NCBI RefSeq assembly: GCF_029542785.1
Contig: NC_083372.1
Coordinates: forward strand, 1-64,000
Direction: 5' to 3'
Source: Malassezia japonica
Taxonomy: Eukaryota > Basidiomycota > Malasseziomycetes > Malasseziales > Malasseziaceae
Length of the DNA stretch: 64,000 nt
Shown piece by piece: positions 18,146 to 63,381 of the stretch; position 1 is the stretch's first letter, and every line of letters starts with the position of its first letter. Made by a program: the position numbers and the translations under genes. Under the pieces are notes generated by a model that saw only the letters and a list, made by a program, of their open reading frames with translations, was not told the DNA's origin and made no database searches.

Positions 18146-18837
18146 ATGATGCACGAAGGGGACCAAAGCGGCGGCGGCGCTGCCTCGTTTGCGCCGCAGC
18201 AGCTATTCCAGCAGGCATCGATGCTGCATATGCGTGCGCAGCATCTCATTGATAGCACGGCGCCCTTTACGCTGCAGCGCTGGGGCGCGACGGGCGCGTT
18301 GCTTTTCCTGTTCATGCTGCGCATTGTCCTTGCCGAGGGGTGGTATATCGGTATGTGCTCCAACTGACGCAGTGTGTTATGCACTGTTCATCTACTTGTT
18401 GAACTTGTTCCTGGCGTTCCTTACGCCCAAGTTTGACCCTGCGTTTGAGTCGGATCTCGCTGCGCAAGATGTCGAGGAAGGTGAGCCGGGTCTCCCTACC
18501 TCGTCGCGCACCAGCTCTTCGGGCCTGATGAGCAGCGTGTTCCATCCCTCTCAACAAAGTGACCAGGACGAGTTCCGTCCGTTTATCCGGCGCCTGCCCG
18601 AGTTCAAGGTACGCCTCCTGACTGACACAGTTCTGGCTGAACGCGACGCAAGCCATCGTCATCTCCATTTTCGCGACGCTCTTTGAGGCCTTTGACATTC
18701 CCGTGTTCTGGCCTGTGCTTGTAATCTACTTCATGGTGCTGTTTGTACTCACCATGCGCCGCCAGATCCAGCACATGATCCAGTACAAGTACCTGCCCTT
18801 TGACATTGGGCGCAAAGCGCGTTACGGCTCGTCGTAG
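18146..18837 (+). CDS. RER1: RER1, Golgi-to-ER retrieval receptor, 3 exons
   Basis: Exons 18146-18350, 18373-18608 and 18631-18837 give 215 residues, close to the family length. Both introns are exactly 22 nt. Joining them yields 'WYIVCYALFIYLLNLFLAFL', 'TPKFDP', 'EFRPFIRRLPEFKFWLNAT' and 'FDIPVFWPVLVIYF', all classic RER1 blocks. The protein has four membrane segments and returns ER membrane proteins from the cis-Golgi in COPI vesicles. A second in-frame ATG follows the first directly. The stop lies only 13 bases from the stop of the convergent UBP2 gene. Confidence 0.95.
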
Positions 18838-18850
18838 CGTACATAGTAAT

Positions 18851-21800
18851 CTAGGAAGCACTACGTGCATTTTCAAGGAGCCCTTGCTCCTGGACGTCGC
18901 TGCGGACGTAGACAACCAGGTACGATGTTGCGCCGGTGGGACTGCGTTAGAAGAAGGACGTACTCGCGCTGGACTTCGCCGAAAGGGATGGTATTCACAC
19001 GGGCGTCGTTGTACGAGATCCACCCGTCGCTTGCAAAGTCGCGCTGGTCCAAGAAATAGTGGCCATGGGATGCCTCGCCTGGGTGAGTATGGCGACGTAC
19101 CTCGATGCATAAAGACGGCCGCGAGGCGATACGAGACGCTGCGCTCGTCCGCCCAGCGCTCCTGCAGCTCGCGCCGCTTGGCATGCAGCACGGTGCGAAT
19201 CTGCTCCGCCTCGCCACGCAGCGTTTCTGCGGTTGTGCGCAGCGCCTCGAGCTTGTCTTCGCCGAGGAGCGCCGGCAGCGAAGCGTACGATTCGACCGGA
19301 ATGGAGGTGAGCGCCTTTTCGAGCGTCTCCATGTGGCCCGGCAGCAACTGGTCGTCGCCGAGGACGTGTGTGAGGCGCGTGCGCAGTCGGGCGATTTCCT
19401 GGCGGTCACTGCGTGCTGCCGATTGCACAGTGGCAAGTCGCTTGGCCTCGTCGGGAGGGTACGCTGCCAGGTCCATGTACCGATCGAGGTAGAGATGCTC
19501 CTCTAGCTCGATCCCCGCCTGGTTCTTCACGGCGCGGTGGCGCGCACGGTCGTACTGCACGCGCTGCACCTGCATTTGAAGCAGCGGCGGCGCATGCACC
19601 AGACTGACCGAGCGGCGCACGGGTTTTCCGTCCTCGCCGACGAGCTCCTCGTCGTCAAAGAACGTATCGAGCGCGTCGTACATCGAATCGGCTTCGGGGA
19701 GGAGCGTCACAGGAATGCTCTGAAACTCTTCCTCTTTGACGTGCATGCTCGCAGTTGCCTGCTGCAGCTGCTGTGCGGTGCGGCCGACAAACAGGCGATG
19801 GACATCGGACCCCTGCTGTGCGGCCCACGTTGCATCGGGATAGCACGTCATGGCTGCCTGGATCTGAAAGATCATATTGTCGAGGCACTCGCTCACGTCC
19901 TGCTGCGTGCCAACGTGGTTCAGGAGCGTGTCCGGCGCATCCTCGCCGCTCGCACGGTACGCCTGCTCCCACGCCAGTGGCACCAGCGCAAGGTACGCAA
20001 GCTCTTTGGCCGGCGTCACGGCCGCGCTCGGCGAAGACTGCATCTCGGAAAAGAGCTCGGCAAGAAGTCGGACGACTGGGTCAGCCTACACACGTACATC
20101 GGCAGGAGCGTTCGAGCTCTTCGAGCGATACTTGGCGCCCTCCAATCGTCGGCAGCGGCTGCGACGCGTCCATCGACTGCGCCGTGCGCCCCATTTCCAG
20201 GACGGTGGTGCGCAGGAGCGAGATGCGGAAAAAGTACTGCAGCACCGAGTTGAGGTAGCACGTATTCCCAATGTTTTGGAGGCCGCGCGGCGCGCTGAAC
20301 GGTGGCCCAGCCTCCTCTTCCGCATCGCCAGCGAGGTAGCGGCGCAAGTAGCTGCTGCCGCGGCTCTCGGCGATGCAGTACAGCGCCGCACGCAGCAGCT
20401 CCTGGCGCGTGGTCGTCTCGGCGACGTATACCTCGTACGCAACGACCACCAGCCCGTCGTCGATGTCGTCGCTGACCTGGATCAGGCGGTAGGCCTGCGC
20501 CACGTCCGCCACAGGGCTCTTGGCAAGACGCGCCGCCAGTGCAGGCGTGTTGTGGTAGCGCGAGAGGATCGTGAGAGCGAGCGTCGCATCGCGCAGGCCA
20601 TCATCCGTGCCATGGTCCAATACATCGCGGACACGGCGGTCGTACGCGGCAATGATGGCCGCGTCGTCCGATGCCGGCATCGGCGCGTCGTCCCAGAGGG
20701 GAAGCGACTCTGGCGCAGCCAGGATCGGGACAGCGATGCCGAGGTGCTCGTAGCTTGCACGCACATCGGCGTGCGTGTAGAGTCCCTTGCTCTTTTCCAT
20801 CGCAAGGAGCACACCGAGCGCCTCGGTCTGGGGCCGTGCGTCGTGGACAGCCTCTAGTGCCAAAAACAATTCCTGGAGGCGGTGCGGAAATGCAGCCGCG
20901 TTGACACGGTAACCTTGCACGGTCGCCTCTGGCGTCGCGTCAGAGGGCACACCGAGGCGCGCGTACGCGCGGCGAAGCCCTTGGTCGTGGGGCGGCGTAG
21001 GCGGCAGTGCGCACGAGCCAAACGGCGTCAACGCGCTATGCTGCGCGACGTGCAGCGCGATGCCGGTTTCCGGCACAGGCGGTGTGCCGCCGAAGTGGAC
21101 GCACCACGCGGCAAGCTCAAGATACACGCGGATCAGGCGGAGGACGTCGGCAGAGGGCGCTTCGCTCGGAGCCGGTGCCTCTGCGCGCGCGTCGCTTCGA
21201 GAAGCATCATCAGGCGGCGTCTCACTCGTCGCCTCCGCCTCACCCAACGCGTCGTCGCCGGGTGCGTCTACGTGCAGGTAAGCAGGCACCTGCAGTGCCT
21301 CGCGGCCGTCCTCGAGCGGCGCAGTGTGCCACCCGACAAACGTGAAAATCGCCTGGGAGCTCTCGTCCCAGCGCAGCTGCTGCGAAAATGCCTTTCCTTG
21401 CACCGGAACGGCCCTAGCGGTGCCTGCGAGTGCATCGCCAAAGATGCGCACCAAGAGCGCTACCGCGCGCGCCACTTCGGTACGGGGCGTTATACCCGGT
21501 GCCGGCGTCTGCTCGCGCGCCGTACGGAACGCGTCCCAGACATCGCGTGGGAGCGTTGCGGGAACCTGTCCAGGGACCGAAGTGAGCACGCCCCAGTCCC
21601 TGCCTAGGTCCGAGTGCCGGAGCATGTCGTGAAACGGCACTGGGCCGTGCACGGCGTCGGTCACGTAGTGCTCCTCTGCGCGCACATCTTCCTCTGCAAG
21701 GAGCGTGCGCACAGCAGACGTGTCCTGCGGCGCGTTTTCACCGGTCGCCGGCATATGCAGCACCCACTCTGCACGGTCCGGCACGAACACGGCGTCGGGA

Positions 21801-21982
21801 TGCGGCCGTGCACCGCCGAGATGCTCGCCGAGCGCACTTCCCGGCGCCGCGTCCACCTGTAGACTATACACAGGGCACTCTACACTACCCAACAGGCCAC
21901 ATTCACCGAGTGCACGCGGCGTACGCACGACTTCGCGCGCGCGCGCCGGCCACCTCGACCCCTCGCCGCCCTCGTCGTGCAT
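18851..21982 (-). CDS. UBP2: Ubiquitin C-terminal hydrolase, UBP2-like, 4 exons
   Basis: Exons 21982-20098, 20075-19101, 19078-18964 and 18941-18851 give 1021 residues. All three introns are 22 nt. The catalytic Cys box 'NIGNTCYLNS' (Cys about 575) sits near the end of exon 1. The sequence 'GTQQDVSECLDNM' opens exon 2. The His box 'SHGHYFLDQ' (His about 960) becomes contiguous only after removing the second intron, and 'GATSYLVVYVR' only after removing the third. Length, the long N-terminal region and the large insert between the Cys and His boxes fit yeast Ubp2, which trims Lys63-linked chains with Rsp5. It shares a 46-base divergent promoter with LAA1. Confidence 0.88.
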
Positions 21983-22028
21983 GGGAGCGCCCGATCGATG
22001 ACGTAAGCCGTCCGACGTCCCCACGACG

Positions 22029-25000
22029 ATGGGCGAGGAGATGACAGTGCCGCCGGACGAGCCTGCGGGCTGGGGCGACGCTCCTGCGAGCGCGGAACCG
22101 CCTGTGCAGGCGAGTGTTGAAGCCGAAGTCCAGGCGAGTGTCGACGCCGAAGTCCAGGCGGTCGACGCCGAGGTGCAGGCGACAGACGTTTCGTCGGTGG
22201 CCGCCGAGGCGGAAGCGCCGCCGGCTGCCGCGCCAATGCCGCCGGCGAGTGCGCCTGCCGGCGAGGCGCCCGCTACGACTACTCCCTATATCCCTGCGAC
22301 GGCGCTTGATGCGGCGGCGCTTGCCGAGGCCGTGCGCAGTGACCAGGCCAGCATGTTCTTGTTGCAGTGGCTTACGCATGCCGAGTCGATCCTCGCCGCG
22401 GACCGTACCGGAAGTGCGGCATTTGTCGAGGCCGCGCTGTGCCTTTGTGGTGCGCGGCGGCCCCATGTCGAGACGCACAACGGTGCGCCGTCGGCGCTGG
22501 ATAGCATTCCGACTGGGCGCAGTGCGCGGCAGCTCCTGAGCCGCTGCCTTGTGCACATCTACCAGGACGAGGACGCGGAGAAGCCGCCTCTGTACGACGC
22601 GATTACCTCGCTCAGCGATGCGGTGAGCAAAGAGGCCGTGCGCCCCGATACGCTGTCGCGCCATGTCGCTGCGCTCGATGTAAGCGCTTCGCTCCTGAGC
22701 GCCTTTCCCAATGCCGCGGCCATGTCGCACGGGGCGCTCGTTCCGATCTGCCTAAAGCTCGCGCGCACGTCGAGCGCTCCGGTGCTCGCGCGCTACCACG
22801 CGCTGTGCCTGCTCGAGGTTTTGCTGACCCACCACAGCGTCGGCACGCTGTCGGCGAGCGGCGTGAAGGATTTGTACAAGGCGCTGCGTGCTGCGCTCCT
22901 CGACAAGGCCGGGCCGATGGTGCGCGCGGCATGCGGATGCCTGCGTGCGCTCGTGGCGCAGCACGATGCGCTGCGTGCCAAGAGCGAGATTGAGGGCGTG
23001 GCGCTGCAGTGCTCCAAGGTGATGCACACCTCGGACGTGGCGACGCGCACGTCGCTCGCCGAGCTTGTCGCTGCGCTCCTTACGCAGACCGAGCTGCACG
23101 GCGGCAGTGACGGCGAGAATGCCAAAGGCCCCGTCGCCACGCCGCTCTATACGCCGCAAGAGATGCTGCAGACGCTCCAAGTGTACGTCGCGCGCGCGAC
23201 GACGTGGCAAGGGCGAACAGGCGCGCTGCAGATGTACGCTGCGCTCTTTGCCAAGCTGGGTGCATCGTTCATCGAGGGCCACTACGAGCTCTTGCTCATG
23301 CACCTCGTCAACACCCTTGGGCAGCACACGGCGGCGATGCTGACGCCGGCCGAGGCGCTGCATCTGCGCAGCGGCCTGCGCATCGTGCTGCAAACTTACC
23401 TCTGTGCGCAGCTTACCGAGCCCGCGCAGGAGCGCGCCGCCGTCGAGCTCGGCACGCATATCCTCGGCGTGTGGCCGCCACGCACGCCGAATAGTCCCCC
23501 TCCTGGCGACGCGGCGTTGGCGCTGAGCCTCGATGCGTGCACGTCACTCATCGCGAGCCTCGGCGGCCTTGCTCGGCCGCTGCACGATGCGCTGTACGAG
23601 CCGGTGCTGACGCTCCTCGCGCACCCCTCGCGCCCGGTGCAAGTGCGTGCAGCGTGGTGGCTGCGTGTCGCCTGCGACGTCCATCCCGTGCTCCTTGCGC
23701 CAACGTACACGCGTCTGCTGCAGTACGTGCGCCGCGATGTTGCGGCGCTCAGCACCGCGCAGCACGATCGCGGTGTCTCGCTGCGTGCACGCCTGGCGGG
23801 GCACAGCAGTGCGCTTGCGGCGCTCGTCCCGATCGCCGCCGCACAACCCCTGTACGCGCTGAACGAGGACGCAGAGGACGTGTTTGCTCTTGCCACTGAC
23901 CTCCTGCAGCAGGTCGCCGAGCACGGGCTGGGCGAGGCTGCGGCGGCGATCAGCGCTGCATGGACGCTCCTCGGCTCGCTCTTTGCGCTGGGGCCGCTGT
24001 TTGCGCGCCCCCACATTGCGCGCCTCTTGCAGCTGTGGCGCAACGCACTCGCGGCGCCCCCGAACCCCACGTCGCTCGACGAAGGTGCGTGGATGTTTCT
24101 GTTTGGCGTGCGCGAAGGCGCGCTGAGTGCGCTCCTGTCCTTCTTCTTGCACGGCGGCGCAAGCGTGCTCACGCAAGAGAGCGCGCGCCGCGTCGTCGGC
24201 ATGCTGAGCAACGTGCTCGTGTTTCTCAATGGCTTTAGCGTCTACCGCCGCACGGCTGATGCGGACGCCATTGTGCTGCTGACGCGCGAGCGCGAGCCGC
24301 GCGTGCGCGCGCTCTTGCTGCGCTGCTGCACCCAGCTCGCGGACCGCCCTGCGCTCGAGCCGCTGCAGCCCACGCTGATGCGCCTCGCACTGCTGCTTGC
24401 CGCGCAGCCCGAGCGCTTTGTCGGCAGCGCGGCACAGGCGGCCATCTCGCAGAGCAGCGGCGCGTTCCAGATGTGGTCCGCCGCCGACCAGTACGCGTAC
24501 GGCGTGACGAGCATGGTCGAAAAAGAGGGCGCAGCGCTGCGTGCCTGGTCGCAGCCCTTCTGCCCCAAAGCGTACGTCCCGCCGCACCTCGCGATGGACA
24601 TTGCTATGGACGGCGTGCACGCCACGCTCGACCGCCTCGCACACACGCCGGTCGTCGGTGCGCTGGAGCACGAGCCGTTTGCACTGTACGTCGCGCCCTA
24701 TCCCCCGCTGGACGAGTACCGCGTCAAGGTGCCCGAGGCGCCCGCCCCCCCGCCTGCGCCCACCGCCGAGGTGGACGCGGCGCTGGAGTTTATCGCCGCG
24801 ACGCTCCCCTTCCGGGAGCGCGATGCGCAGATTGTTGCTGTCGAGTACCTCGCGCAGGCGATCCGTGCCCCGAGTCTCGAAAAGAATGCGGGGTGCCGCA
24901 TCGCTGTGCTGGCAAACAGCACCGTTGCGCTTCTCGGTGCGCTGCGCACTGCGATGGACGCACACAATGCCGCGCGGCGCCCGTCCGGCTTTGCGAACGA

Positions 25001-28184: not shown

Positions 28185-28216
28185 AGGAATTAAGCCTGTA
28201 GTCCACCACGACGAGC

Positions 28217-30671
28217 ATGGCCGACGCGAGCGCGCATGCTGGGCGCGCGGACGTGGGGCCCAGCGGCAGGGAGCCGGACGGTGTCGACGCGCACGGCAGT
28301 GCGTCGCCGACGGCGGCGGCGCACGGCGCAAACGGCGCGTGCAAAGCGCCGCCGCTCGCCGCGTCGCGCACCCGCCAGCCCCCGGCGCGCGGCATTTTGC
28401 GAGCGCCGCCGCCGGGGAGCAGCAGTGCGCTGTGGCTCGGAAAGGAGCTTGTCTACAACCTCAACAGCCGCCTCGCGCAGCAGAATCTGCCGTCGCTCCC
28501 GGTCAAGGTGCCCAACACCGGCGCCGTGTCGATGCTCACCGGCGTCTTTCGGCGGTGGGGCAGCGCGGCCGGCGCCGCGGCGGAGGCACCGCACGAGGCA
28601 CCGCCAGCAGACGCGCCAGCGCCGGCCCACGCCGGCCGCCGGCGGCACGTCCACTTTCGGGTCGAGGACCTCGCCCACACCTATCCGATTGCAACGGCGG
28701 ATGCGCCCGGTGCCGAACGTGCGACGCGCGACCGGATCGAGGAGGAGTATGAGATGCGTATGAACCGCCTGCTTGGCCGTGCATGGACGCCGGGCGAGCT
28801 GCAGGGTCTGTACCGCATGTGCTGCCGCGCGCGCGAACAGGCGCCGTGCGGCCCCATCCTCCGGGCGCTCGACCAGGCGGCGTCGTGGCCGCGGGGCCAG
28901 CACACGCTCGACTTTACCTCGGTCGACTTGCGCGCGCACGCGCAGCCGCTCGCCGACATGCTCGGCGCGCCCATGGCGCTGCAGCGCCTCGTGCTCGAGG
29001 ACTGCCACCTGACCGATGCCGGCGCCGCGGCGATCCTCGATGCGTTGCTGACCGCGTCGAGCGTGCGCTCGCTGAGCCTCGCCGGCAACGTGCACGTCCG
29101 CGCGCAGGGCTGGGACGCGCTGGGCGACCTCGTCGCCCAAGGCACGCTCGAGCACCTCGACGTGTCGGAAAACAGCCTGGCGAAAAGCGCGGTGCGTGCG
29201 CTGTTGGGAGGCGGCGCACACAAGCTGCAGACGCTGCGTATGGAGCAGTGCGATCTGCGTCCCGCGTCGCTCGACATTATCGCGCACGCCGTGCACCAGT
29301 CGCCGCTGCGCCACCTGTCGCTGCGCCGCAACCGCATCGGCGGCCACGGCGTCGAGGTCCTGGCCGCCGTACTGCGCGACGTCCCCGAGGACGCTGCCGC
29401 TGCGATCGAGGCGGCCGAGCATGCCTCGCCCCTCGCGAGCGGCACGGAGCTGTATCCCCCCCACGGCGATGCGCCCGTCGCGCGTGCGCTGCTCGAAGGC
29501 ACGCCGGTCGGCCTTTCCGATGCGCACGAGCGCCTCCGTGCAGAGCTGATGCGCGGTGCGGCCGCCTTTCGGTCGGTGCTCGCGCCGCTGCCAGTGTGCA
29601 GCGCGCTTTTGACGCTCGATCTCAAGTCCAACATGGTGCGCGGCAATGTGGCGCCGCTCGCCGCAGCCTTGCGGCGCAACCGGACGCTGCGTGTGCTGAG
29701 CCTGAGCGACAATGAGCTGGACCCCCTTGGCCTGGCGCTCCTGGCCGACGCGCTGCGCTACAACACCACACTCGAGACGCTCGACGTGAGCCACAACCCC
29801 TGCTGCGCGGATATGGTCGGCGTGCTGCGCCTGCGCGAGGCGCTCGCGGTGCACCCCAAGCTGAAGCGTGTCTTTTTGGCCAACACGCAGCTCACGCCCG
29901 AAGGCGCCGTGGCGCTCGCCGAGTGCCTGCCGGATGCGCGCCATCTGCTGCACCTCGACCTTGCCGGTAATCCGCTGCGCCTCGTCGGCACGCTCGCGCT
30001 GCACACGGGCCTCACGGCGAACGCGTCGGTGCGGTGCCTGGACGTGTCGGTGGACACGTCGGACGCCGAGCAGCTCGCTGCGGCGCAGCGCATCTACGAC
30101 GTGTGCCATGCCAATGCCGAGGCCGCACACGCGCGCGCGACGACCGGCACGGCGCGGCACCAGGCGCACCAGGCGCTGGAGCGCTCGGTGCTCGCCGCGG
30201 CGCTGCACAAAATCCAACCCCCGTCGACGGCGCACATTGATGCGCTGGACGCGGCGCGCCACGCGCTGCGCCCGGAGGCGGGTGAGAGCGAGCAGGCGTC
30301 GGCACGCGCGGCACTCGAGCACGCCGTGGAGCACTGGCCCAGCGCCGACGAAAAGATCCTACGTACGTCCCTTGACTCACCCAGCGGAGGCGCAGGCGGT
30401 TCTCCATCAGCTATGCGATACCAAAAATCCCCCTACTCTTTCGCTCGAGATGCCCAACACCTCGAGCGAACAGCCCAAGAGCCCGACCGCGCAGCGCGCC
30501 GAGGGGCTCTTGACGGAGGAAAGCAAGGTCTTCCGGCAGGCCAAGACCCTCGAGGTCAGCGACGAACACCACTCGCCTGTGCACACGTCGCCGACGCTCG
30601 ACGACGAGGACAAGAGCGGCGACGAACTGCGCCAGGAGATCCTCGAAGCGACACGCACGGCCGTGAACTAA
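28217..30671 (+). CDS. Leucine-rich repeat (RNI-like) protein, PPP1R37-like, 2 exons
   Basis: Exons 28217-30362 and 30385-30671 give 810 residues; the intron is 22 nt. Residues about 130-145 contain 'RRHVHFRVEDLA', which could be a phosphatase-1 docking strand. At least nine ribonuclease-inhibitor-type LRRs follow, such as 'LRHLSLRRNRIGGHGVEVL', 'LRVLSLSDNELDPLGLALL' and 'LETLDVSHN'. The tail is acidic and Ser/Thr-rich. The arrangement resembles animal PPP1R37 (a PP1 inhibitor), but that identity is a tentative inference; the LRR fold is sure. Its TAA stop shares two bases with the stop of the convergent GCL-modifier gene. Confidence 0.72.
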
Positions 30672-31524
30672 GTAGCGCGTGCATGTACCATATACCTGCA
30701 TTAGTCGATCGACTTACCCTTGCTTGGCGACAATCCCGCGGTCGGGCACCAGCACCGTGTACCGCGCAACCCACTCGGGCTCGAGGCGCCGCGCGGGCGG
30801 CGCAAGCTGCGGCGCAAGCTCGTCGAGCTCGTCGGCAGCGAGCATGGCTGGGTGAGCAGACAGAGAGGGACGTACGCTGCGCGTCGTGGTGCACGACAAA
30901 CGGCGCATCGTGCGCCGCGCACCACTGGTACAGCTCCGCATCCGGCGCGCACTCGCGGTGGTGCGCACCGGCAGAGACCAGCGCGGGGTATGCATAGACG
31001 GCGCGGTCGTCCGCCACGCCGCGCACGTCGGGTGCGACGGAGGAAAAGACGGCCTGGAGCGCAGGCAGCGCGAGATCCGCAATGCCGACACGCACACCGA
31101 GCGCGCCGGCCGCGTTCCACAGCCGCCGCAGCGCAGCGGCGGTCGCTTCGTCCGGCACCTGCGCCCGCGCATCGAGCTGGTCGGCGAGCGCGGGAAAGGC
31201 GAGCACGAGCATATCGACGTGTGCCACCTCGGTCAGCGCACGCACGCGCTCGAGCGCATCCGTGACGTACTGCGCATTGTACGCCGCGCCGTCGGAAGCA
31301 GGCGCGCCGAGGAAAAAGAGCTTGACAAGCACCTGCGTCCGGTCGTCGGCCGCGAGCACGTCGCCCGCCGCTGCGCGCACCGCCTCGAGCGGCGGCACCT
31401 CGTCGCCGCTCGAGACAAACGGCAGCGCGCTCGTGTACACGAGATCGGCAAGCAGGCCCGCCTCGGTCGTCGGCGCGCCGGTCGCGAGCGCCGACGTATA
31501 CAGCTTCACGCACCGCGCGCTCAT
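30668..31524 (-). CDS. Glutamate-cysteine ligase modifier (regulatory) subunit-like, 3 exons
   Basis: Exons 31524-30876, 30847-30718 and 30695-30668 give 268 residues. Introns are 28 and 22 nt. Removing both gives 'FVVHHDAQPMLAADEL', 'EWVARYTVLVPDRGIVAKQG' and the C-terminus 'YMVHARAT', which follows the GCLM pattern of '..WV.RY.V...RGI....GY...A'. The N-terminal part has the aldo-keto-reductase-like barrel of this family. It would tune the catalytic subunit that makes gamma-glutamylcysteine for glutathione. Reading through the second intron would end in a TAA and lose the last 9 residues. The ATG is only 17 bases after the stop of MNS1 on the same strand. Confidence 0.75.
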
Positions 31525-31541
31525 TCGTGTGGAGGTACTGG

Positions 31542-34026: not shown

Positions 34027-34890
34027 CTACGAAAATACGCGGGGCCACACCGAGGGCAGTTGATGCATGGTGGAGACGGTGACGATGCCGTCGGGCTGCG
34101 TGTACGCCTCGTTGCTGGGATGTAGCTCGTCGTAATACACTGGGTCAGTAGTAAGACGTACCGCACGACTGCCAGCCGAGCGCATGGGCCGTGCGCACAT
34201 TGTTCAGGCTATCGTCGACAAAGTAGTGGTGCGCGTCGCTCCGCGCGCCGACCGCCGCCTCGGCCGCCGAGTAGAATTCGCGCTCGGGCTTGCAGGAGCT
34301 GGTGAGTCATGCGACGTACAAATCAGTGATCGTATAGTCGCAGTACACGACGCCCTGCACGAGCTTATCGAGCTGGAGCAAGGAGAGAACACGCAGGGCG
34401 TGCTGCGTGAGCATCGCGACGTACCCGCTTGTACGCGTTCGTCAGTGCGTACACGCGCACTTTTTTGCGGTCGATGCGGCGCAGGAGCGCAATGAGCGCA
34501 GGGTCCGGGTGCAAGATCTCCTCGAGCGGGAGCGCGCCGTCGCACTTTTCGTCGTAGTCCATCGGGTCGATGGTGTGGTGCTTCACGAGGCCGCGGATCG
34601 CGAGGCCGTACTCTTTGTAGTAGTGCATGTGCAGCGCCTCGGCCTCGTCCTTATCCAGGCCCAGCGTCCGGAAGTAGTCGCGGATAAGCACCGCCATCTG
34701 GTCGGCAATCCTGCGTCAGCGCAGGCACGTACCGCGTCTCGACCTGGGAGTACAGCGTATTGTCTGGTGAGAGAAGCGACGTACCAATATCCAGCCAAAG
34801 GATAGTGTCTGCATCGCGCGCATCGACATACTCGGCCAACGGAAGGAAGCCCACGCACGCCGTCCACGGGCGTTCCAGCGCCCCGGCCAT
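34027..34890 (-). CDS. SDT1: Pyrimidine 5'-nucleotidase (HAD family, SDT1/PHM8-like), 6 exons
   Basis: Exons 34890-34785, 34763-34733, 34710-34425, 34402-34320, 34298-34162 and 34139-34027 give 251 residues. The five introns are 21, 22, 22, 21 and 22 nt. Splicing builds HAD motif I 'WLDIDNTLY' (the nucleophile Asp pair spans intron 1), motif II 'VYALTNAYK', 'GVVYCDYTITDFSCKPE' with the motif III Lys, and motif IV 'HYFVDDSLNNV'. The first intron is 21 nt with no stop, so it can be missed as coding. The enzyme dephosphorylates pyrimidine nucleotides or related phosphates in the cytosol. Divergent from ALG13, 39 bases between ATGs. Confidence 0.9.
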
Positions 34891-34929: not shown

Positions 34930-35487
34930 ATGGCCGCACGGGAGGAGCTTACCTTGCTAGTGACTGTCGGCAGCACGCGTTTCGACGCGCTGGTCGCGCG
35001 CGTGCAGGACGACGACGTGCTGCAGGCCATCGGCAGCCTGGCGCCCAACGCGCGCGTCCTGCTCCAGTACGGCAGGAGCGACGTGCGTCCTCCTGCGCAC
35101 GCCAAGCCCACCATCGTGCACGGCGTCGAGGCGCTGGTATATACAATGGACAACGTGCACGTCTACCTATTTCGCTATGCGCCGAGTCTGCAGGCGTTCA
35201 TGGACGCGTCCGACATGGTCGTCGCCCACGGCGGTGCGTAGCGTATTTTCTCTGACCCAGGCGCGGGCACGATCCTCGAGGCCCTGCGTACGCCGTCGCA
35301 TCCCCGTGTGATGGTTGTCCCGAACGCGTCGCTGATGGACGACCACCAGCGCGAACTCGCGGACACAATGGCACCGGACTATTGCCTGCTCGGCGACCTG
35401 ACGTACGCCGCTCTGCTTACCCAGGTCGCTTCCTACACAGCTCTCTACGCTAGCGACGCGCACTTTTGCGCGCTTCCCGAACCGTAG
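34930..35487 (+). CDS. ALG13: ALG13, catalytic subunit of UDP-GlcNAc transferase, 2 exons
   Basis: Exons 34930-35233 and 35261-35487 (27-nt intron) give 176 residues. 'LLVTVGSTRFDALV' at the N-terminus and, across the junction, 'VVAHGGAGTILEALR' followed by 'NASLMDDHQRELA' are characteristic of Alg13. With membrane-bound Alg14 it adds the second GlcNAc to dolichol-PP-GlcNAc on the cytosolic face of the ER. I chose the ATG at 34930; the frame reaches 34897 only with a GTG. It shares a 39-base divergent promoter with the nucleotidase gene. Confidence 0.92.
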
Positions 35488-46889: not shown

Positions 46890-48438
46890 CTAGAGCGAAC
46901 CACTCACGAGACGTCCTTGCACAAATACCGAGCTGATGTTGCGGTCGTCACCGCAAAAGACCCACTTTTCAAAAGCGGAGGAGAGGGTATCATCTTCGTG
47001 AACGTACAATCCAGGATTAACAGGCGCCTGGCGTGCAGTGGCTGGATAGGTGTTGATAAGCAGAGCGTCAAACTCGTAACCTCCTTCGAGTTTACCAACC
47101 CTGTTCTCCAGGCCACAGACATGGGCGCCGCCTAGTGTTGCCAGGTAAAAGAGTGCTTCCAGCGACACGGAGCGCCCGTGTAATGAAGGTTGTTGGAGAG
47201 CAAGACCACGAGAGACTGTGCTGGCTTCGCGAATGACCGACAGCATCCCAACTGCATATCCTCCCGAGATGTCCGATCCCAAGCCAATCTTTAGACCGCG
47301 CTCAGCGAGCTCGACAAGGCGGAATAGTCCACTGCTCAAATTCAAATTGCTGACAGGGCAGTGCGACAATCCGCATTTGCGCTCCAAAAGGAGCTCGATC
47401 TCTTCTTCACTGAGGTGGATGGCGTGGGCCAAAATGGTACGGTCATTCAAGAGATGGTAATGGTCATATACGCCCGCATACGATTTGGATTCAGGGAACA
47501 ACTCCAGCGTCTTGGCGATCTCGGCCTTGTTCTCACTCATATGCGTCTGAATACGAACTGCCAGTCAGTCTAATGGGAACGTACTGTCTGGGTTCTCCTG
47601 TGCGAGGTGGCCGATTCCATTAAGAAGCTCATCCGTACAGCAGATGGCAAAGCGAGGGGTGAGAATGGGCTGGACCAATGCGTCGGGCATGGGACCACAC
47701 AGGTCTTTGGCATATTGAATCAGATCCAAGGAGTGGTTGCAAGATTCTGACGCGCTGGATTCCACGTAGGTGGGCGATGCATTTCGGTCCATTTGACACC
47801 GGCCAACAAAGGCACGGAGTCCTTTCTCGTGGCAGACCCTTACCAGGGCCTTTGAAGCTAAACGTCAGCAGAACAACGTACCTTCTAAGTGAAGTGTTGC
47901 ATACAAGCATGCAGTTGTAGTACCGGAACGGAGGTATCGTTCCACGGCAGAGCCGTACGTAGCCTCCGCGTACGAAACGTCATGAAATTTCGATTCTTCC
48001 GGAAACGTGAGTTTCTGTAGCCAGTCCAGTAGCTGGAACTGCATACCAAGCCCGGAATTGGCCTGAAAAGTATTAGTATTCATTTTCTTTGTACCTCTAG
48101 ACGTACGATTTGAGCTGCATGCTGTAATGTTAGCATCCAAACATGGCGTCAATACATACCGTATGCGTATCAATGAATCCAGGGCACAAAAAGCTTCCCT
48201 TCGCTAGGTAGATCACTTCGGGGGACTTGCACCATCCTTTCCTCTCTAGAAACGAAGCAGCCTTGCTCTTGTTGCCTTGGGCGGTAACTCCCTCCGTGCT
48301 AACCGGACATGCGTCAAGGTCATCCACGAACTGAATAATACCTTGCGCATCCACCCCCAAGATACCATTTTCGATAATCTTGGTCTCTGTAATACTCACA
48401 GGGGTTACGATTCCGCCGACAAATACTCTTCCAGACAT
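46890..48438 (-). CDS. GUD1: Guanine deaminase, 5 exons
   Basis: Exons 48438-48160, 48121-48107, 48062-47882, 47857-47585 and 47557-46890 give 471 residues. Introns are 38, 44, 24 and 27 nt. The amidohydrolase HxH metal motif 'GFIDTHTH' is split: the second His is the first residue of the 15-nt exon 2 ('HAAQI'). Other ligands are in 'IQTHMSENKAE', 'ILAHAIHLSEEE' and 'GLGSDISGG'. It converts guanine to xanthine and ammonia in purine salvage. It converges with the DNAJC11-like gene, 40 bases between stop codons. Confidence 0.92.
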
Positions 48439-48630
48439 GGTGCGCTAGAGCGATCTAGGCAACGCCTCACCCTATCGGTGTGCCAAGCTGATCCGTGCTC
48501 GTCTTATCAGCACGATTACGTAACGCGTGAATTTTCGTACATGAATGACTGGGCAAAGTCGTGTGCAGTATCCCGCTCATAAGCCGGTGACTTTTGGTGT
48601 GTGCTATAGTACAATGGTAGTCTAATTAAA

Positions 48631-56416: not shown

Positions 56417-57739
56417 ATGTTCCCTTCGTACTTGAGTCATTTAAGGCCGACACGACTTTCTCTGACTCTTACCAAGTGCACTACTACCAGAAAGCTCTCT
56501 TCATCGCTTTTCCATAGTCGACCCTATTCGTTGACTAACCGCGCTTATTCTTCTTCACGTACTCACACGAAGAACCAACGTCCAGCGCTAGGACCACTTT
56601 TTACTGGCGTACCAGCATCCTTTTTGTACAGCACAATGGCACCTATTAACACGGAGAACAACGACGCTCCTGCGCAGAAGATCCACAACGTGGTACGTAC
56701 GAATCGCCAAGCGTCATACTGACTGCAGGTGATCATCGGCTCCGGCCCTGCTGGTCACACGGCCGCCATCTACCTGGGGCGTGCCAACCTGGAGCCCCTC
56801 ATGTTCGAGGTACGTTACATCACGGGCCGGCTCCCGTCCCTAGAGAAGGACAGTCGTACTAACACATAATAGGGTATGCTTGCCAACGGCGTTGCTGCCG
56901 GTGGTCAGCTCACGACCACGACCGATGTGGAAAACTATCCCGGCTTCCCGGATGGCATCGGTGGTTCTGAACTCATGGAGAAGCTGCGCGCTCAGTCGCA
57001 GCGCTTCGGCACCGACATCAAGACGGAGACCATCTCGAAGGTCGACCTCTCGAGCCGTCCCTTCAAGATCTGGCGCGAATGGGCCGAGGACGAGGGTCCG
57101 ATCCTTACGCAGACTCTGATCCTGGCCACGGGTGCGCTTGCCAAGCGCATGCACCTGCCCGGTGAGGAGACCTACTGGCAGAACGGTATCAGTGCGTGCG
57201 CCGTCTGTGACGGTGCTGTCCCCATTTTCCGCAACAAGCCGCTGGTCGTGATTGGTGGTGGTGACTCTGCCTGTGAGGAGGCCACCTACCTGACCAAGTA
57301 CGGCAGCCACGTCTACGTGCTGGTCCGTCGTGACGAGCTCCGTGCGAGCAGGATTATGGCCAAGCGTCTCCTGTCGCACCCCAAGGTGACTGTGCTGTTC
57401 AACACGGTGGCCACCGAGGCGAAGGGTGACGGTGAACTCCTGACTGCTGTGCGCACGAAGAGCACCACGACCGGCGAGGAGAAGGACCTCGAGGCCAACG
57501 GTCTGTTCTACGCGATTGGCCACATCCCTGCTACCTCGGTGGTCAAGGGCCTGGTTGACCTTGACGAGGACGGCTACGTGATCACTAAGCCCGGTACTTC
57601 GCAGACTTCTGTGCACGGTGTCTTTGCCGCTGGTGATGTTCAGGACAAGAAGTACAGGCAGGCGGTTACCTCCGCCGGCACGGGCTGCATTGCTGCTCTC
57701 GAGGCGGAGAGGCTCCTTGCTGAGGAGGAGGCCGAGTAA
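56417..57739 (+). CDS. TRR1: Thioredoxin reductase, 3 exons, two possible starts
   Basis: Exons end at 56692, then 56729-56809 and 56873-57739; introns are 36 and 63 nt. From the ATG at 56636 the protein is 334 residues, the standard low-Mr TrxR length: FAD motif '[13 protein letters not shown]', redox 'CAVCDG' and NADPH motif '[10 protein letters not shown]'. An in-frame ATG at 56417 adds 73 residues with no Asp or Glu, about 11 Arg/Lys and many Ser/Thr/Leu, like a mitochondrial presequence. The first ATG has a weak context (T at -3, T at +4), the second a strong one (A at -3, G at +4). Leaky scanning could therefore give mitochondrial and cytosolic forms. The enzyme recycles thioredoxin for the peroxiredoxins and MET16. 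Confidence 0.9.
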
Positions 57740-58233
57740 AGTAGATAGTCGTACTATTGTTATGCCGCCATGGGTCTATGAGCCGCTCTTCGAAATGCGG
57801 GGTAGGCGCTTTGCTCGCGCCACACCTTTCCAGGCGCCGCGTGGATTGGCGCGCGTGGCAGTGCCCGATCCCACGCGTCACAGCCCTTCTGCTCGGCGCC
57901 GAGCTTACGCGGGGTAGATATGTGCCGGAAGCCGGTGGCAAATCAGGGACGGTTGCCGGCTTTTGTCACGTGGTACATATTCAAGAGGGTCTGCCAGCCG
58001 AAGCGACCCGTAAAGTTATCCAATCATTAAGCTCTAATTCAAAATCGAGCAGTAACCAACGGTGATGACGATATTCCTCGACCGTCATAGGCTGGGAAAA
58101 TTGCCAATCGCCTCTTCCGATTAGTGCCGCGGGTGCTTGCAGGCTGAGACTGCGCCTGCATTTTCCCGGCAGAAGAGCTACCTATCCCTCTTATAAACTC
58201 TCTCCAGCACCTGGAGGTTTTCTCTTGACCAAC
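57740..58233. other. Intergenic, TRR1 3' flank and ACO1 promoter
   Basis: 494 bases without a gene. The ACO1 TATA box lies at its right end. Confidence 0.55.
58192..58197 (+). promoter_or_regulatory. TATA box of aconitase
   Basis: TATAAA 36 bases before the ATG at 58234. Confidence 0.5.
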
Positions 58234-60639
58234 ATGCTGTCGACCCGCGCGATGCGCTCCCCCGCCCTCCGCACGGCTGCCCTCAGGGTGAATCGTGCGG
58301 CGGCCACCCGTGGTTTCGCCACTGTTGCTGAAGATGCTCCTAACCTGAACGTCGAGGACCTCAAGAAGAAGGTCGAGATGAGCGTCATCGAGTCCGGCAA
58401 GGGCTACTACCTCCCTTACGAGAAGCTCGAGAAGAACCTCGAGGTCGTCCGCGAGCGCCTCAAGCGCCCCATGACCATGTCGGAAAAGATCGTCTACGGT
58501 CATCTGGACGACCCGCACACCCAGGACATTGAGCGTGGCGTTTCGTACCTGCGCCTTCGCCCTGACCGTGTTGCCTGCCAGGACGCCACCGCCCAGATGG
58601 CCCTGCTCCAGTTCATGTCGGCTGGTCTGCCCCACGTCGCTGTGCCCACCACTGTGCACTGTGACCACCTTATCGCTGCCAGCACCGGTGGTGTTGAGGA
58701 CCTGGCTCGCGCCAAGGACGTGAACAAGGAGGTGTACGACTTCCTTGCCACCTGCACTGCCAAGTACGGTATTGGCTTCTGGAAGCCCGGCTCGGGTATC
58801 ATTCACCAGATCATCATTGAGAACTACGCCTTCCCCGGTGGTCTGATGATCGGTACTGACTCGCACACCCCCAACGCTGGTGGTCTTAACATGATTGCCT
58901 GCGGTGTTGGTGGTGCCGATGCTGTCGATGTTATGGCTGACATTCCCTGGGAGCTCAAGTGCCCCAAGGTCATTGGTGTTGAGCTCAAGGGTAAGCTCTC
59001 GGGCTGGACTTCGCCCAAGGACGTTATCCTGAGGGTCGCTGGTGAGCTCACCGTGAAGGGTGGTACCGGTGCCATTGTCGAGTACAAGGGCCCTGGTGTC
59101 TCTTCGCTCTCCGCCACTGGTATGGGTACTATCTGCAACATGGGTGCTGAGATTGGTGCCACCACCTCGGTTTTCCCCTTCAACGACCGCCAGGCCAAGT
59201 ACCTCGAGGCCACTGGCCGTAAGTCGATTGCCGACCAGGCTGCCAAGTACCAGGCCAACCTGCTGCCCGACCGTGACGCTGAGTACGACCGCCACCTCGA
59301 GATCGACCTTGACGAGCTCGAGCCCTACATCAACGGTCCCTTCACCCCCGACCTTGCCACTCCCCTGTCCAAGTTCAAGGAGGCTGTCAAGGAGAACGGC
59401 TGGCCCGAGGAGCTGCGCGTTGCCCTTATCGGCTCGTGCACCAACTCGTCGTACGAGGACATGTCGCGTTCGGCTTCGATCGCCCAGGAGGCCCTTGACC
59501 ACGGTGTGAAGGCCAAGTCGGGCTTCACCGTTACCCCCGGTTCGGAGCAGATCCGTGCCACCATCGAGCGTGACGGCCAGATGGAGACCCTCACTGAGGC
59601 CGGCGGTATGGTTCTTGCCAACGCCTGCGGTCCCTGCATTGGTCAGTGGCACCGTACCGACGTGAAGAAGGGTGAGAAGAACTCGATTATCACGTCGTAC
59701 AACCGTAACTTCAGCGGCCGTAACGACGCCAACTTTGCCACCCACGCCTTTGTTGCCTCGCCCGACCTGGTTACTGCCATGGCCTTTGCTGGTGACCTGA
59801 CCTTCAACCCCGTTACCGACTCGCTCACTGGCGCTGACGGCAAGGAGTTCAAGTTCAGCGACCCGAGCGGCCACGAGATCCCTGCCACGGGCTACGACCC
59901 CGGTGAGAACACCTTCCAGGCTCCTCCGGAGGATGGCTCGAATGTCGAGGTCATTGTCAGGCCCGACTCGGAGCGTCTCCAGTTCCTGGAGCCTTTCAAG
60001 AAGTGGGACGGCAAGAACCCCACTGATATGCCTGTTCTGATCAAGGTGAAGGGCAAGTGCACCACGGACCACATCTCGGCCGGTGGTCCCTGGCTCAAGT
60101 ACCGTGGCCACCTGCAGAACATCTCGAACAACTGTCTGATTGGTGCCACCAACATTGCCAACGACGAGACCAACAACGTCCAGAACTACTACACCGGCGA
60201 GTGGGGTGCGGTTCCCGCCACTGCCATCTCGTACCGTGACGACGGCCACCCCTGGGTTGTGATTGGTGATGACAACTACGGTGAGGGTTCGTCGCGTGAG
60301 CACGCTGCCCTGGAGCCCCGCTACCTCGGTGGCTACGCCATCATCACCCGCTCGTTCGCCCGTATCCACGAGACCAACTGCAAGAAGCAGGGTCTGCTGC
60401 CCCTGACCTTCCAGGAGTCCAAGGACTACGACCTGGTTCGCCCCGACGACCTCGTCGACCTTGAGGGTGTGACTGAGCTTGCCCCTGGCAGCGTCGTCAC
60501 CCTGGTTGCTAAGCACAAGGACGGCTCTGTGGACAAGATTCCCCTGGTTCACTCGTTCAACGAGAACCAGATCGAGTGGTTCAAGGCCGGCAGTGCCCTC
60601 AACCTGATGGCTGCCAAGGCTGCCGCCAAGCGCGCTTAA
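58234..60639 (+). CDS. ACO1: Mitochondrial aconitase
   Basis: A single exon of 801 residues from the ATG at 58234. The first 30 residues ('[21 protein letters not shown]') are a clear mitochondrial presequence. '[12 protein letters not shown]' and '[11 protein letters not shown]' provide the three Cys of the [4Fe-4S] cluster; '[11 protein letters not shown]' and '[14 protein letters not shown]' are active-site blocks. It interconverts citrate and isocitrate in the TCA cycle. Codon use is the most strongly biased in the window (GCC, GGT, AAG, CGT), showing very high expression. Confidence 0.97.
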
Positions 60640-60849
60640 AGGTTCCGTGTACACGCATACCGCAAGACGCTTGTCGTACTATAGATTGCAGTTTCTTCGG
60701 AATCGCTTGACTCCTATGTTTGGCATAGCGGACTCGCCACACCGCCCACGGGACCGCCGCAGGGCGGCTGGGGCGCGACTAGTTTGCCTCCACTTCACAG
60801 CCTCGTGTGGAGGAATTTCCGGCGTGGCAGACGCGTCGAGCCCTGCGCG

Positions 60850-63381
60850 ATGTCCCTGGCCGTGGACCGAGAGTATGTGGCATGATTAACGTGTAGCGCG
60901 GCAATACAGCATTTACGTATAGAATACCTGCGCAGCTGCGATGATCCGATCGTCTCGCGGGTGATTACCAAAGGGATCCCTCCCTTGCACGCCCCCGGAG
61001 AGAGCGAAAATCTGTCGCACCCCACATCCAGCGAGAGTGGGGTCTATACCAAATTTGGATCACCAAGGGGTACAAACGTGCAGAAGTACGAGGGCACAGA
61101 CGCCTACCAGGACGATGATGGAGTCGTGTTATCCTCGTCGCCGCTGCCCCCATTGGACATTGCCGCGGTCCAGCGGCTCTTTGAGGAGTACCTGCCCCAG
61201 GAGCGATGGCCGCTCGACGAGGAAGACGAAGCAAACCTTCCTGGCGTGAGCGCGCTGCATCCCTCGCCTATGGAATCGATCGGGACGCCAGGGCGCCACT
61301 CTCCTTTGGACGAAGTGCCGGCACCTTATCGCGTACAGCCGCGAAGACTGCAATACACACAGACAATCTACGGTCCACGGCAGTCGAGTATGCTTGGCAT
61401 GCGTGTATCTGGAAAGAGGCGTGCCGATACAAGCACAAGCAGCTCAACCGAGCTGTTTGGCGCCTCAGAGAGCACAGCTGTGCCAGAGTCCAGCATGCGT
61501 GGCAGCCTGGCCCGCACGCTCTTCCAGAACTCGCTGCATTACAGCCAGGCGGACCAAGGAAGTATGGAAGCGGAAAGCGTCAAGACTGTGGTGAATCCGC
61601 GTGCAAGTGACATTCATTCGACCTATTCCAAGCCAGGTCCTGCTGGTATGATACACCCTTCGCCCGACCGTGCAGCTGGGGCGAATGTCTTGTCGGCACT
61701 TGCCGATTCGGGCGGGCAACGGCGGACGACCTCGCCGCTTGTTCCCCTGAACCCATCTCGTGCAGGAATGGAGCCTATTTCGTTCCATATCGAGGCCATT
61801 GGATTTTCGCAGCAGCCGGAAGGGCTCGGTGAAAGCCTTGTTTCAGACGAGCCATCGAGCCTTGAATCGGACAGTGACGAAACACTTGCGAGTGACACGC
61901 TGTGCCCTTACATTCCAGGCTCTTTCATTATCAACCCCGTTCCCGAGAGCTCGTCGCTGGCCCAGTCCAGCAAGCGGCCAAACCGGTCACGCAAAGGGTC
62001 GGCAGCGCGCCTCGGCGAGCGGCTTCCCGGCCAGACCAGCCGCTCGCCTGCACCCGAGGATCCAGGCCGACTGATATTCCAGCGCAATGCCATCCGTCCT
62101 GCGCCACCGAACGCCTCCTTGCTGAGCTCCAAGTTTGGGTTGAACGATACGAGTCAGTCGCAGGCGCAAATCCACCTCGCGCGGTACGGTCGCGCGGGTG
62201 CAGGCGAAAGCGACGCGAATGGCATCACTATCTCGCTCTACTTCCCAAACCAGACGAGTGTCGAGGCTACGTCGCCGCTCCCTGTGCGCATTCGGAAGGA
62301 CGCCACGATGGAGGAGCTTATCGGCTACGGCCTCTTTTGCTATGTGGAAAGGCACGGCGAGCCGCCGCAACACCCCGATGCCGACGAGGAGGAGCTCGAC
62401 ATCTATCTCGAGACCACCGCATGGTCCCTGCACATGGTCGAGGACGGCGAGGTGGACGAGGACTACCCAGCCATTGACCGCTCCCTGGTCGTCGGCCGCT
62501 TTGGCGAAACGGAATTTGCGATTTGCCCAACGTCGCAGCCCCGACGTACGTATTTAATGCTCACCACAGATGCATGGCGGCGACCGGAAGAGCCGACATC
62601 GGCGGCCGATGTCCCCAACACGTTTGCCATGCAACCCTCACGCGACCGGCCTAGCGAGTCGGAACCTGATACCCTGTCGCTGCAGATCATGGTCGTCCCT
62701 ACGGCCATGGGTATGACGACCATCCGAGTCCCTCCCCGTGCGACTGCAGCCCAAGTACTTGCGATTGCATGCCGTCACTGCCTTTTGAGCGATCCCAGTG
62801 GCTATGCGCTGCTTTACCGCGATGTCGACGAGGTGATTCCTTTGGACAGGTCCGTGCGTGACTTTTACGGCCGTACGGACCTGGTGCTCGTGGAGCGGAC
62901 CACGCTCCCCCGTGCTGCGGAGGCGCCGGTGCCCTCTGCGCGACCCGCGTCGAGCATGCCCGAGCAGCCTAAGTACAAGACGGCGATGGACTTGATTTCT
63001 AACTACAAGGTACGTCATCTTACTGACGCAGGCCTATTCGGTCAGCCGGCGCCACCCCATCTCGGTTGGCCGCCATGAGCGTGTACTGACGATTGATGGC
63101 GACTGGATCCACATTATGTATGTTGCGCTGCTCATGACAGTCGTCCTGCCGAGAAGCGCATGTTCCACGCACGGTCCACGTCCTACCCCATTTCGGCCGT
63201 GCTGCAGTGCGAGCAGTATGTCCGGATGCCGAACCTATTCAAGATTGTTGCCTATCGTGAAAAAAACGCGCGATACGAAGCGCTACGACTTTGAGGCGGA
63301 CAACCGCCAGAAAGCAGGTGCGTCGCTCGACTAACCACAGAGGAAATTGTGGCCGAGATCAATCAGCTGCGGCGTCCCTAG
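60850..63381 (+). CDS. AVO1: AVO1/SIN1, TORC2 subunit, 5 exons, with an apparent +1 frameshift
   Basis: Exons 60850-60872, 60897-63009, 63032-63117, 63141-63317 and 63341-63381; introns of 24, 22, 23 and 23 nt. The N-terminus after splicing is 'MSLAVDRDAAIQHLRIEYLR'. The CRIM domain is at about 430-530 ('DATMEELIGYGLFCYVERHG', 'IYLETTAWSLHMVEDGEVDEDYPAI' in parts), then a Ras-binding-like region and a C-terminal PH domain ('YSVSRRHPISVGRHERVLTIDG' in parts). The protein scaffolds TORC2 and helps recruit AGC kinases. In exon 4 a run of seven A (63260-63266) shifts the frame; six would keep 'VAYREKTRDTKRYDFEADN' open. As given, translation stops at 63292-63294. Confidence 0.85.

Follow-up and report, generated by a model that had tools for sequence, protein, structure and literature searches.

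Ultrashort U2-type introns are a known kind of intron, and we read those described here for Malassezia japonica, with a donor-to-branch spacing of 17, as a variant compacted to the steric floor of the spliceosome. In Stentor coeruleus, according to the available text of the report (PMC9505925), every annotated intron is 15 or 16 nt long, and the branch A lies at position 10 in 90.9% of them. The tiny introns of M. japonica share with these an ultrashort GT-AG form, near-constant length, a near-invariant branch A, and conserved U2 and U6 recognition sequences. However, the set point is 17 here and 10 in Stentor, so 17 is no universal limit. Stentor introns are described in the same text as AU-rich and without a strong branch consensus, whereas strong GTACGT and CTNAC motifs are found here in a GC-rich genome; Slu7, not identified in Stentor, is present, and longer introns coexist with the tiny ones. 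We found a narrow length mode within 15 to 25 nt and a single branch position for 22-nt introns, whereas those of 23 nt and longer give a floor only, and longer predicted introns also carry branch motifs. One example is a 27-nt intron at 35234-35260 with A at 22, inside a glycosyltransferase domain (PF04101).

Other comparisons are less close. Mikrocytid introns of 16-17 nt have a uniform minimal length and conserved sequences, and U1 is not among the snRNAs identified there, nor was it found here; but they number 224, their host is a reduced parasite whose spliceosome is itself much reduced, and the accessible part of the report (PMC10245619) states no branch-spacing floor. The chlorarachniophyte nucleomorph (18-21 nt in B. 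natans) likewise has hundreds of tiny introns of narrow size range, but the source, as far as available (PMC6461891), describes shrunken U1 and U5 and no identifiable 5' splice-site motif, and the introns studied here belong to a free cell nucleus. Type B introns of Trichomonas (~25 nt, shortest 23) are similar in length and also form a short class beside longer introns, but the available text gives 24 for T. vaginalis (PMC12316389), against estimated thousands of tiny introns here. A short, anchored branch-to-acceptor gap without a polypyrimidine tract is shared with Yarrowia, Trichomonas, and Giardia. There the anchoring described in the available text is on the 3' side, and Yarrowia has long introns (median 204 nt; PMC2483917). 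In human short introns it is again the donor-to-branch distance, not total length, that is limiting, but at ~50 nt rather than 17 (PMC6692369, available part). At a spacing of 17, the extended U6 and U2 helices of the human case could not both fit.

The window analyzed is the 64,000-nucleotide stretch at positions 1 to 64,000 of contig NC_083372.1. A preliminary description listed 17 introns of 21-24 nt in it, and all 17 coordinates are exact (seven on the + strand, ten on the - strand). The lengths were recounted as 21 nt (two), 22 nt (11), 23 nt (two), and 24 nt (two). All 17 segments have GT...YAG ends and YTNAY at intron positions 14-18, with A at 17; here and throughout, the branch A was assigned from this motif. 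The donors, described as mostly GTACGT or GTATGT, are indeed GTACGT in 11 and GTATGT in three, with GTACGC, GTAAGT, and GTGCGT once each.

It had also been claimed that each removal restores a conserved protein motif. This is largely borne out, 11 of the 17 falling within a region matched by Pfam or aligned with homologues. Two 22-nt introns (18351..18372 and 18609..18630, +) lie within the PF03248 match of a Rer1 gene, and three more of 22 nt (18942..18963, 19079..19100, and 20076..20097, -) within the PF00443 match of a ubiquitin hydrolase gene, for which the query omitted ~120 residues from the middle. Five belong to an SSM1-like nucleotidase on the - strand. Four of these, three of 22 nt (34140..34161, 34403..34424, and 34711..34732) and one of 21 nt (34299..34319), are supported by both a gene finder and homologue alignment. 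The fifth (34764..34784, 21 nt) is called as an intron by neither gene finder, and the alignment supports it: removal yields DIDNTLY, D(I/V)DNTLY occurs at the junction in six of the seven named aligned homologues (P0123 is disturbed there), and the seven residues that the segment encodes are absent from all seven. The eleventh (63118..63140, 23 nt, +) lies within the SIN1_PH domain of a Sin1-like gene.

Among the other six, the junction of 63010..63031 (22 nt, +) falls at the edge of SIN1_PH in the same gene. Support from long open joins was obtained for 47858..47881 (24 nt, -; 420 open codons on joining), 60873..60896 (24 nt, +; start of the Sin1-like gene, 789 open codons joined), and 63318..63340 (23 nt, +; last intron of that gene), the last of which requires co-removal of a 28-nt intron at ~63215-63242. 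We take the product of the 47858..47881 join to resemble guanine deaminase, and those of the other two presumably resemble the ends of Sin1. The intron at 30363..30384 (22 nt, +), which lies close to the 3' end of a spliced frame of 810 codons, is supported by the open frame only, and the candidate at 30696..30717 (22 nt, -; GTAAGT..CTAAT) is unsupported, its flanks being without visible conservation. This candidate and the three with long open joins were missed by the gene finder with a branch term, which misses five of the 17 window introns overall. Two further candidates were seen in the window, one of 22 nt with A at 17 (35403-35424) and one of 24 nt with A at 18 (62546-62569). A PDB search with the window's 2060-codon frame gave no match.

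Beyond the window, the enrichment at 17 that the preliminary description proposed to look for genome-wide is present. GTACGT-N7-CTNAC, which places A at 17, occurs 2068 times in the whole 8.43-Mb genome versus 17 times for a mirrored control. With A at 14-16 there are 37 matches genome-wide against 43 in the control, which is background (raw counts 24 at 14, eight at 15, and five at 16), and the step from 16 to 17 is therefore ~400-fold in raw counts. Spacings of 18-20 total 491 versus 48; counts fall ~8.6-fold from 17 to 18, then 2.0-fold, then ~1.3-1.5-fold, the split among 18-20 being taken from the first 100 places listed. In the window, GT[AG][ACT]GT...YTNAC matches 15 times with A at 17, never at 15 or 16, and zero to four times at each other spacing from 10 to 54. 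In a 264-kb sample, 23-24-nt segments often have their branch A at 18-19; outside the window such segments are split among 17, 18, and 19, and other introns branch at 18-23 and farther. The proposed fixed spacing at the lower size limit stands as a real spacing rule, given the step at 16/17, but not as a fixed value. On these counts, the predicted branch position has a hard lower bound and a sharply preferred value at 17 rather than being "always 17," which suggests a sharp lower limit below which the splicing machinery could not work. The gap between branch and AG is short and in most cases the same: of the 85 matches with A at 17, 67 have a 4-nt tail.

That these segments are introns at all is indicated by several observations. 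A gene finder with neither branch-site nor length terms predicted 239 introns, among them 41 of 22 nt and 13 of 23 nt, and no other length exceeded seven; long predictions (71-150 nt), which mostly look like false joins, were excluded. All 41 of the 22-nt introns have YTNAY with A at 17. Seven hold a second YTNAY, and the motif nearest a 4-nt tail was scored where several occur, which favors 17 in introns of this length. Removal gives the correct reading frame in 48 of 50 testable cases, versus 2/26 and 130/1015 in controls, and Pfam matches span 17 of 25 tiny-intron junctions in ten submitted segments, in addition to five junctions in the window. In favor of a recurrent DNA motif or composition artefact stands the unsupported segment at 30696-30717, but the frame test, the domains spanning junctions, and mirrored controls at background leave this reading hardly credible, and we reject it. 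The GT-AG ends, the branch motif, which is predicted to pair with U2, and the restored coding frames fit U2-type introns. U12-type introns have an AT/GTATCCTT donor and a TCCTTAAC branch; neither was found, the donors here being GTACGT or GTATGT and the branch YTNAY. We also reject recent insertion of template-like, introner-related copies of fixed anatomy as very improbable. The stereotyped anatomy and a G8-C9 linker bias (33/100 versus 13/99, Fisher p 0.0013) would fit such a family, but 81 of 82 linkers (positions 7-13) are distinct, and other Malassezia proteins have inserts at these same sites whose sizes match retention of introns of 21, 24, and 27 nt, so the intron sites look old and their length changed.

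The remaining alternatives concern why 17 is favored. Selection might act on total length, 22 nt not being a multiple of three so that retention shifts the frame, with branch position merely following. In the 264-kb sample, 22 nt does dominate among segments with A at 17 and a tail of 3-7 nt (67 of 82), and 21 nt is rare (three). However, A at 16 or 15 never occurs together with a total of 22 nt (0 and 0), 23-nt segments have A at 17 (nine) or 18 (nine, with the correct frame in five of eight testable), and a 4-nt tail is also commonest with A at 18-23 (24 of 48, tails up to 12), where total length differs. In the mirrored-donor control of this sample, five matches fell at 18 with a 4-nt tail, three of them being real introns with a GTATGT donor that was taken one base too early. 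Selection on length is improbable as the sole cause and is rejected as such. A passive pile-up, in which deletions shorten introns to a steric wall at 17 that has no edge over 18 or 19, fares better and is still unlikely. The background counts at 14-16 and the monotonic fall above 17 are what it predicts, and the same threshold-plus-deletion idea is already in print for mikrocytids (PMC10245619, as far as the text is available). But the fall is far from geometric (~8.6-fold, then 2.0, then 1.3), so that pile-up does not suffice to explain why 17 is preferred, and a possible weak second hump at ~28-36 (small numbers; CTRAC row without control) also speaks against it.

Overall, we consider it probable that the tiny segments are real U2-type spliceosomal introns compacted to the smallest form that the host spliceosome accepts. 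The layout would comprise the donor GTACGT (positions 1-6), a linker (7-11), a U2-pairing block (12-18, with A at 17), and usually a tail NYAG, giving 22 nt in total. With the branch A closer than 17, the helix at the 5' splice site (formed with U1, then with U6) and that of U2 with the branch could not both form and be passed on, and introns below this spacing would be lost. The value itself might be set by U2/U6 geometry, by the bulk of U1, or by another factor. Deletion bias or selection for compaction would heap introns at the limit, and exactly 17 would be favored further as the register in which splicing works best.

Where tiny introns are separated by very short exons, this would imply recognition across the intron and removal of one intron after another. 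In YKT6, an 8-nt exon lies between introns of 23 and 22 nt. The codon score of this stretch is 2.0 with the exon kept, worse than 13.5 with one 53-nt intron. We attribute the lower score to untranslated 5' sequence, since a start codon and MKLY, which is also present in solved Ykt6, appear only when the exon is kept. For TTTGACGCT, a candidate 9-nt exon flanked by two 22-nt introns, the score is only slightly above that of a single 53-nt intron (42.0 versus 40.4 bits), and searches yielded neither a family match nor a credible structure match; DKGTFDAI at this place presumably resembles an Efm4/METTL10 motif.

The U2 and U6 snRNAs look ordinary. A U2 snRNA with GUGUAGUAUC was found at C2:763486-763677, the recognition sequences GUAGUA of U2 and ACAGAGA of U6 are intact and canonical, and SF1 and Slu7 are both present. 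U1 gave no match to RF00003 among the 41 of 132 candidates scored, with the control also silent, and none to the pattern ATACNTACCTG..ATCANGAAG or to ATACTTACCTG. These nulls do not show loss, as an altered 5' end or a shortened RNA would escape; since U1 was not found, its role in the proposed limit is unsupported. Rfam gave no hit above cut-off in the window or in 14 of 20 10-kb pieces. RED, which has been linked to short introns in human cells, was also sought; PF07808 gave no match, and its control was silent too, so this does not demonstrate absence.

In relatives, the records of M. brasiliensis and M. furfur CBS9595 have seven extra residues at the 34299..34319 site of the SSM1-like nucleotidase, and by codon reasoning these proteins imply a putative branch at 16, a lead drawn from two introns, one gene, and two records. 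Calcineurin homologues have no retained 7-residue inserts among the 42 aligned of 120 listed. The best 120 matches for two genes include 13 named Malassezia records, and in six of these (three of eight nucleotidases and three of five calcineurin catalytic subunits) inserted or missing residues start at tiny-intron junctions, which suggests that public Malassezia proteomes are wrong at tiny introns. Annotated introns of M. globosa average 76-79 nt (PMC4634964), so the genus as a whole need not share the tiny class. The preliminary description knew of no such positional rule; a rule for tiny introns is already on record for Stentor (position 10; PMC9505925, available text). No report of 20-25-nt introns or branch spacing in Malassezia occurs among the literature listed, which covers few subscription papers.

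A basic geometric constraint on the spliceosome is how near each other an intron's two reactive ends can be. Earlier limits were, as far as the sources are available, measured in human extracts (~50 nt) or inferred in ciliates without a clear branch motif. With the strong motifs described here, the limit can be read from sequence to the single nucleotide in a GC-rich fungus with ordinary-looking U2 and U6. It is conceivable, though unlikely, that the minimal spacing is a heritable and tunable property of the Malassezia spliceosome that goes with an altered, shrunken, or lost U1. Sister species would then differ in it by single nucleotides, with 17 here and in one relative but 16 in the lineage of M. 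brasiliensis and M. furfur CBS9595. If so, this skin yeast would offer genetic access to a spliceosomal ruler that can be read to the nucleotide.

All 17 of the 21-24-nt introns listed in the window, cut by coordinate, begin with GT and end with YAG in their own orientation and carry the branch motif YTNAY at positions 14-18, with the presumed branch adenosine at 17, as the preliminary description had claimed. A search of the window for GT[AG][ACT]GT followed by YTNAC, at spacings of 10-54, placed 15 matches at position 17; positions 15 and 16 had none, and every other spacing had 0-4. The proposed enrichment at +17 holds throughout the genome (8.43 Mb in nine contigs, the window being the beginning of contig 3): exact GTACGT-N7-CTNAC occurs 1067 + 1001 times, versus 12 + 5 for the pattern read backwards. 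With the adenosine at 14-16, the genome has 37 matches versus 43 in the control (24, 8, and 5 at positions 14, 15, and 16 in the complete list); at 18-20, it has 491 versus 48. Scaling from a 264-kb sample (the window and a further 200 kb from contig 1), where there were 82 relaxed matches with a tail versus 58 exact matches, gives a rough estimate of ~2,900 introns with the adenosine at 17.

What survives of the suggested positional rule is a lower limit and a preference at 17, but not a fixed position, as segments of 23-24 nt also place the adenosine at 18-19. Counted in the 264-kb sample as motif matches, not all of them proven introns, 67 of the 22-nt segments have it at 17 and none at 15 or 16; 23-nt segments have it at 17 and 18 in nine cases each, and 24-nt segments at 17, 18, and 19 in two, six, and three. 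This spread was mostly hidden earlier because of a 24-nt ceiling combined with the minimal tail. The chief rival explanation is a pure wall at 17, with which the lack of any excess at 14-16 is consistent. However, matches fall ~8.6-fold from 17 to 18, then 2.0-fold, then 1.3-fold (18-20 was split into single positions using the first 100 places listed), and this step indicates that 17 is preferred and not merely an edge. The tail (nucleotides after position 18 through AG) is 4 nt in 67 of 85 matches with the adenosine at 17, and 4 nt is also commonest at 18-23 (24/48, counting tails up to 12); the gap from branch to AG is therefore also short. The linker is biased, with G at +8 and C at +9 in 33/100 introns with the adenosine at 17 versus 13/99 at 18-20.

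We favor a model in which compaction has brought introns to a steric floor with a preferred register. By canonical pairing, positions 1-6 would base-pair first with U1 and later with U6, and positions 12-18 with U2; an adenosine at 17 would leave about five linker nucleotides. In the human B complex, a minimum of ~52 nt follows from the lengths of the U6 helix (17 nt) and the U2 helix (14 nt) together with a 15-nm gap (PMC6692369); the yeast would therefore have to assemble without such extended helices. Single, full-length matches to U2 and U6, canonical at the pairing sites, were identified in the genome, and Slu7 and SF1 are present. The search returned no match to RED, which is not proof of absence. 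The same caveat applies to U1 snRNA: a covariance search of the genome with Rfam RF00003 and two sequence patterns found none, the usual 5' end, ATACTTACCTG, being absent from both strands. No U1 has been identified in mikrocytids either (PMC10245619), and that of the B. natans nucleomorph is described as shrunken (PMC6461891).

The 22-nt class also emerged from a dynamic-programming gene finder without a branch term (codon usage, GTNNG donors, AG acceptors, flat lengths of 12-150 nt), run on the window and 200 kb of contig 1. Among 239 introns predicted in 67 kept genes, lengths spiked at 22 nt (41) and 23 nt (13), with at most seven at any other length. All 41 predicted 22-nt introns have the adenosine at 17 (a second YTNAY also occurs in seven). 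Of the 13 of 23 nt, five scored at 17, six at 18, and two lacked the motif; one of two 21-nt introns has it at 17 and the other lacks it, and the single 24-nt intron has it at 18. The motif is missing from all ten predictions of 12-20 nt, which were treated as noise, and many of the long ones resemble false joins. When applied to the window, another gene finder, this one with a branch term, recovered 12 of the 17 listed introns and missed those starting at 30696, 34764, 47858, 60873, and 63318; for 30696-30717, no support was found from conserved flanking sequence either.

Reading frame supports removal. Both flanks are coding-like in 50 of 67 22-nt candidates, and in 48 of the 50 the frame shift equals 22 mod 3 (37/38 at a stricter threshold; 18/18 in a separate test). 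Controls gave 2/26 for motif-less 22-nt GT..GT...YAG windows and 130/1015 for all GT-18-AG windows, below one third because most control windows sit within one exon. With the adenosine at 18, the frame was right in 5/8 at a tail of 4 and 5/5 at a tail of 5.

Conserved proteins also run across the junctions. Ten segments with 25 tiny-intron junctions, chosen from 24 predicted genes with tiny introns, were searched against Pfam, and 17 junctions fall within the best stretch printed for an above-cutoff family: three each in HAD hydrolase, Spo7, and a calcineurin-type phosphatase, two in DNA ligase, and one each in SIN1_PH, PIN, mitochondrial carrier, Brix, YKT6 synaptobrevin, and BIR. Two more lie at an edge (SIN1_PH and the Longin domain of YKT6). 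Rer1 and UCH matches cover two and three further window junctions. The phosphatase aligns without gaps across three 22-nt junctions to a solved calcineurin chain (one alignment printed). The nucleotidase gene (34140-34784, minus strand) aligns to the SSM1 structure over residues 41-250 and to Malassezia nucleotidases. The fifth intron of this gene, 34764-34784, has a length divisible by three (21 nt), which is why the gene finders did not remove it; retained, it would add seven residues present in none of seven named homologues aligned, and its removal yields DIDNTLY.

Eight pairs of neighboring tiny introns lie <60 nt apart, bounding exons of 8, 9, 15, 31, 44, 48, 55, and 56 nt. The 8-nt YKT6 exon GAAGCTGT, between 23-nt and 22-nt introns (contig 1, C1:198803-198855, minus strand, in locus L018), splits the start codon: AT, GAAGCTGT, and AC, then GCC, give MKLYA. 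The protein so encoded can be aligned to solved Ykt6 from residue 1 onward, with MKLY identical. On codon score for this stretch alone, a single 53-nt intron does better (13.5 versus 2.0), which we put down to upstream untranslated sequence; that reading has no start codon there. A candidate 9-nt exon, TTTGACGCT, lies between two 22-nt introns (C1:261868-261920, minus strand, in L025; 53 nt in total) and keeps the frame whether included or skipped. A 15-nt exon also separates two 22-nt introns (L033:2958-3016). Exons of the 8-nt kind fall well below what exon definition would require, and two spliceosomes seem unlikely to fit simultaneously on 53 nt; the two introns would therefore be removed sequentially.

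The window opens with a (CCTAAT)n repeat (1-240; G-strand TTAGGA, unlike TTAGGG) that looks telomeric. Nearby is a TauD-family dioxygenase gene (3138-4262, plus strand), perhaps retained or acquired near the chromosome end; its best named relative is from Exobasidium rhododendri (62%), and no Malassezia is named among the 120 best matches.

The nucleotidase assigns the organism to Malassezia: it is 71% identical to an M. furfur record, 67% to M. obtusa, and 66% to M. brasiliensis, and among its best 120 matches no named record is nearly identical. YATRSPS stands precisely at the 21-nt intron site in the records from M. brasiliensis and M. furfur CBS9595, M. brasiliensis has GTCHADPA (24 nt) at another site, and an M. 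yamatoensis record has a 9-residue (27-nt) insert at a third. From these inserts, intron sites seem common to relatives, with varying lengths. Codons for YATRSPS or GTCHADPA could hold the YTNAY adenosine only at 16, whereas YVARLTS in P0128, the nucleotidase of a relative, is compatible with 17; the floor may thus be 16 in some relatives, judging from conceptual translations of one gene. Six deposited Malassezia proteins (nucleotidases P0123, P0124, and P0226; calcineurin catalytic subunits P0242, P0266, and P0269) have 7-9 extra residues or missing stretches that begin at the junctions of tiny introns, as though these had been retained or overstepped in automatic annotation. For M. globosa, published mean intron lengths are 76 nt (reference) and 79 nt (new annotation) (PMC4634964), so its tiny class would be either small or overlooked.

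Comparably short introns are reported from mikrocytids (16-17 nt; PMC10245619), the B. natans nucleomorph (18-21 nt; PMC6461891), Nyctotherus (21-29 nt), Paramecium bursaria (median 24 nt), and Trichomonas type B (about 25 nt; PMC12316389). Ultrashort introns of Stentor have a nearly invariant branch at position 10 (PMC9505925), whereas the floor here is 17. Among the papers listed by our literature searches, none describes a fungus whose genome holds very many introns of 22 nt with a floor, sharp to one nucleotide, at 17. Ultrashort introns with a near-fixed branch are thus already known, and the fungal 22-nt class with its floor at 17 may be called a new variety of them.
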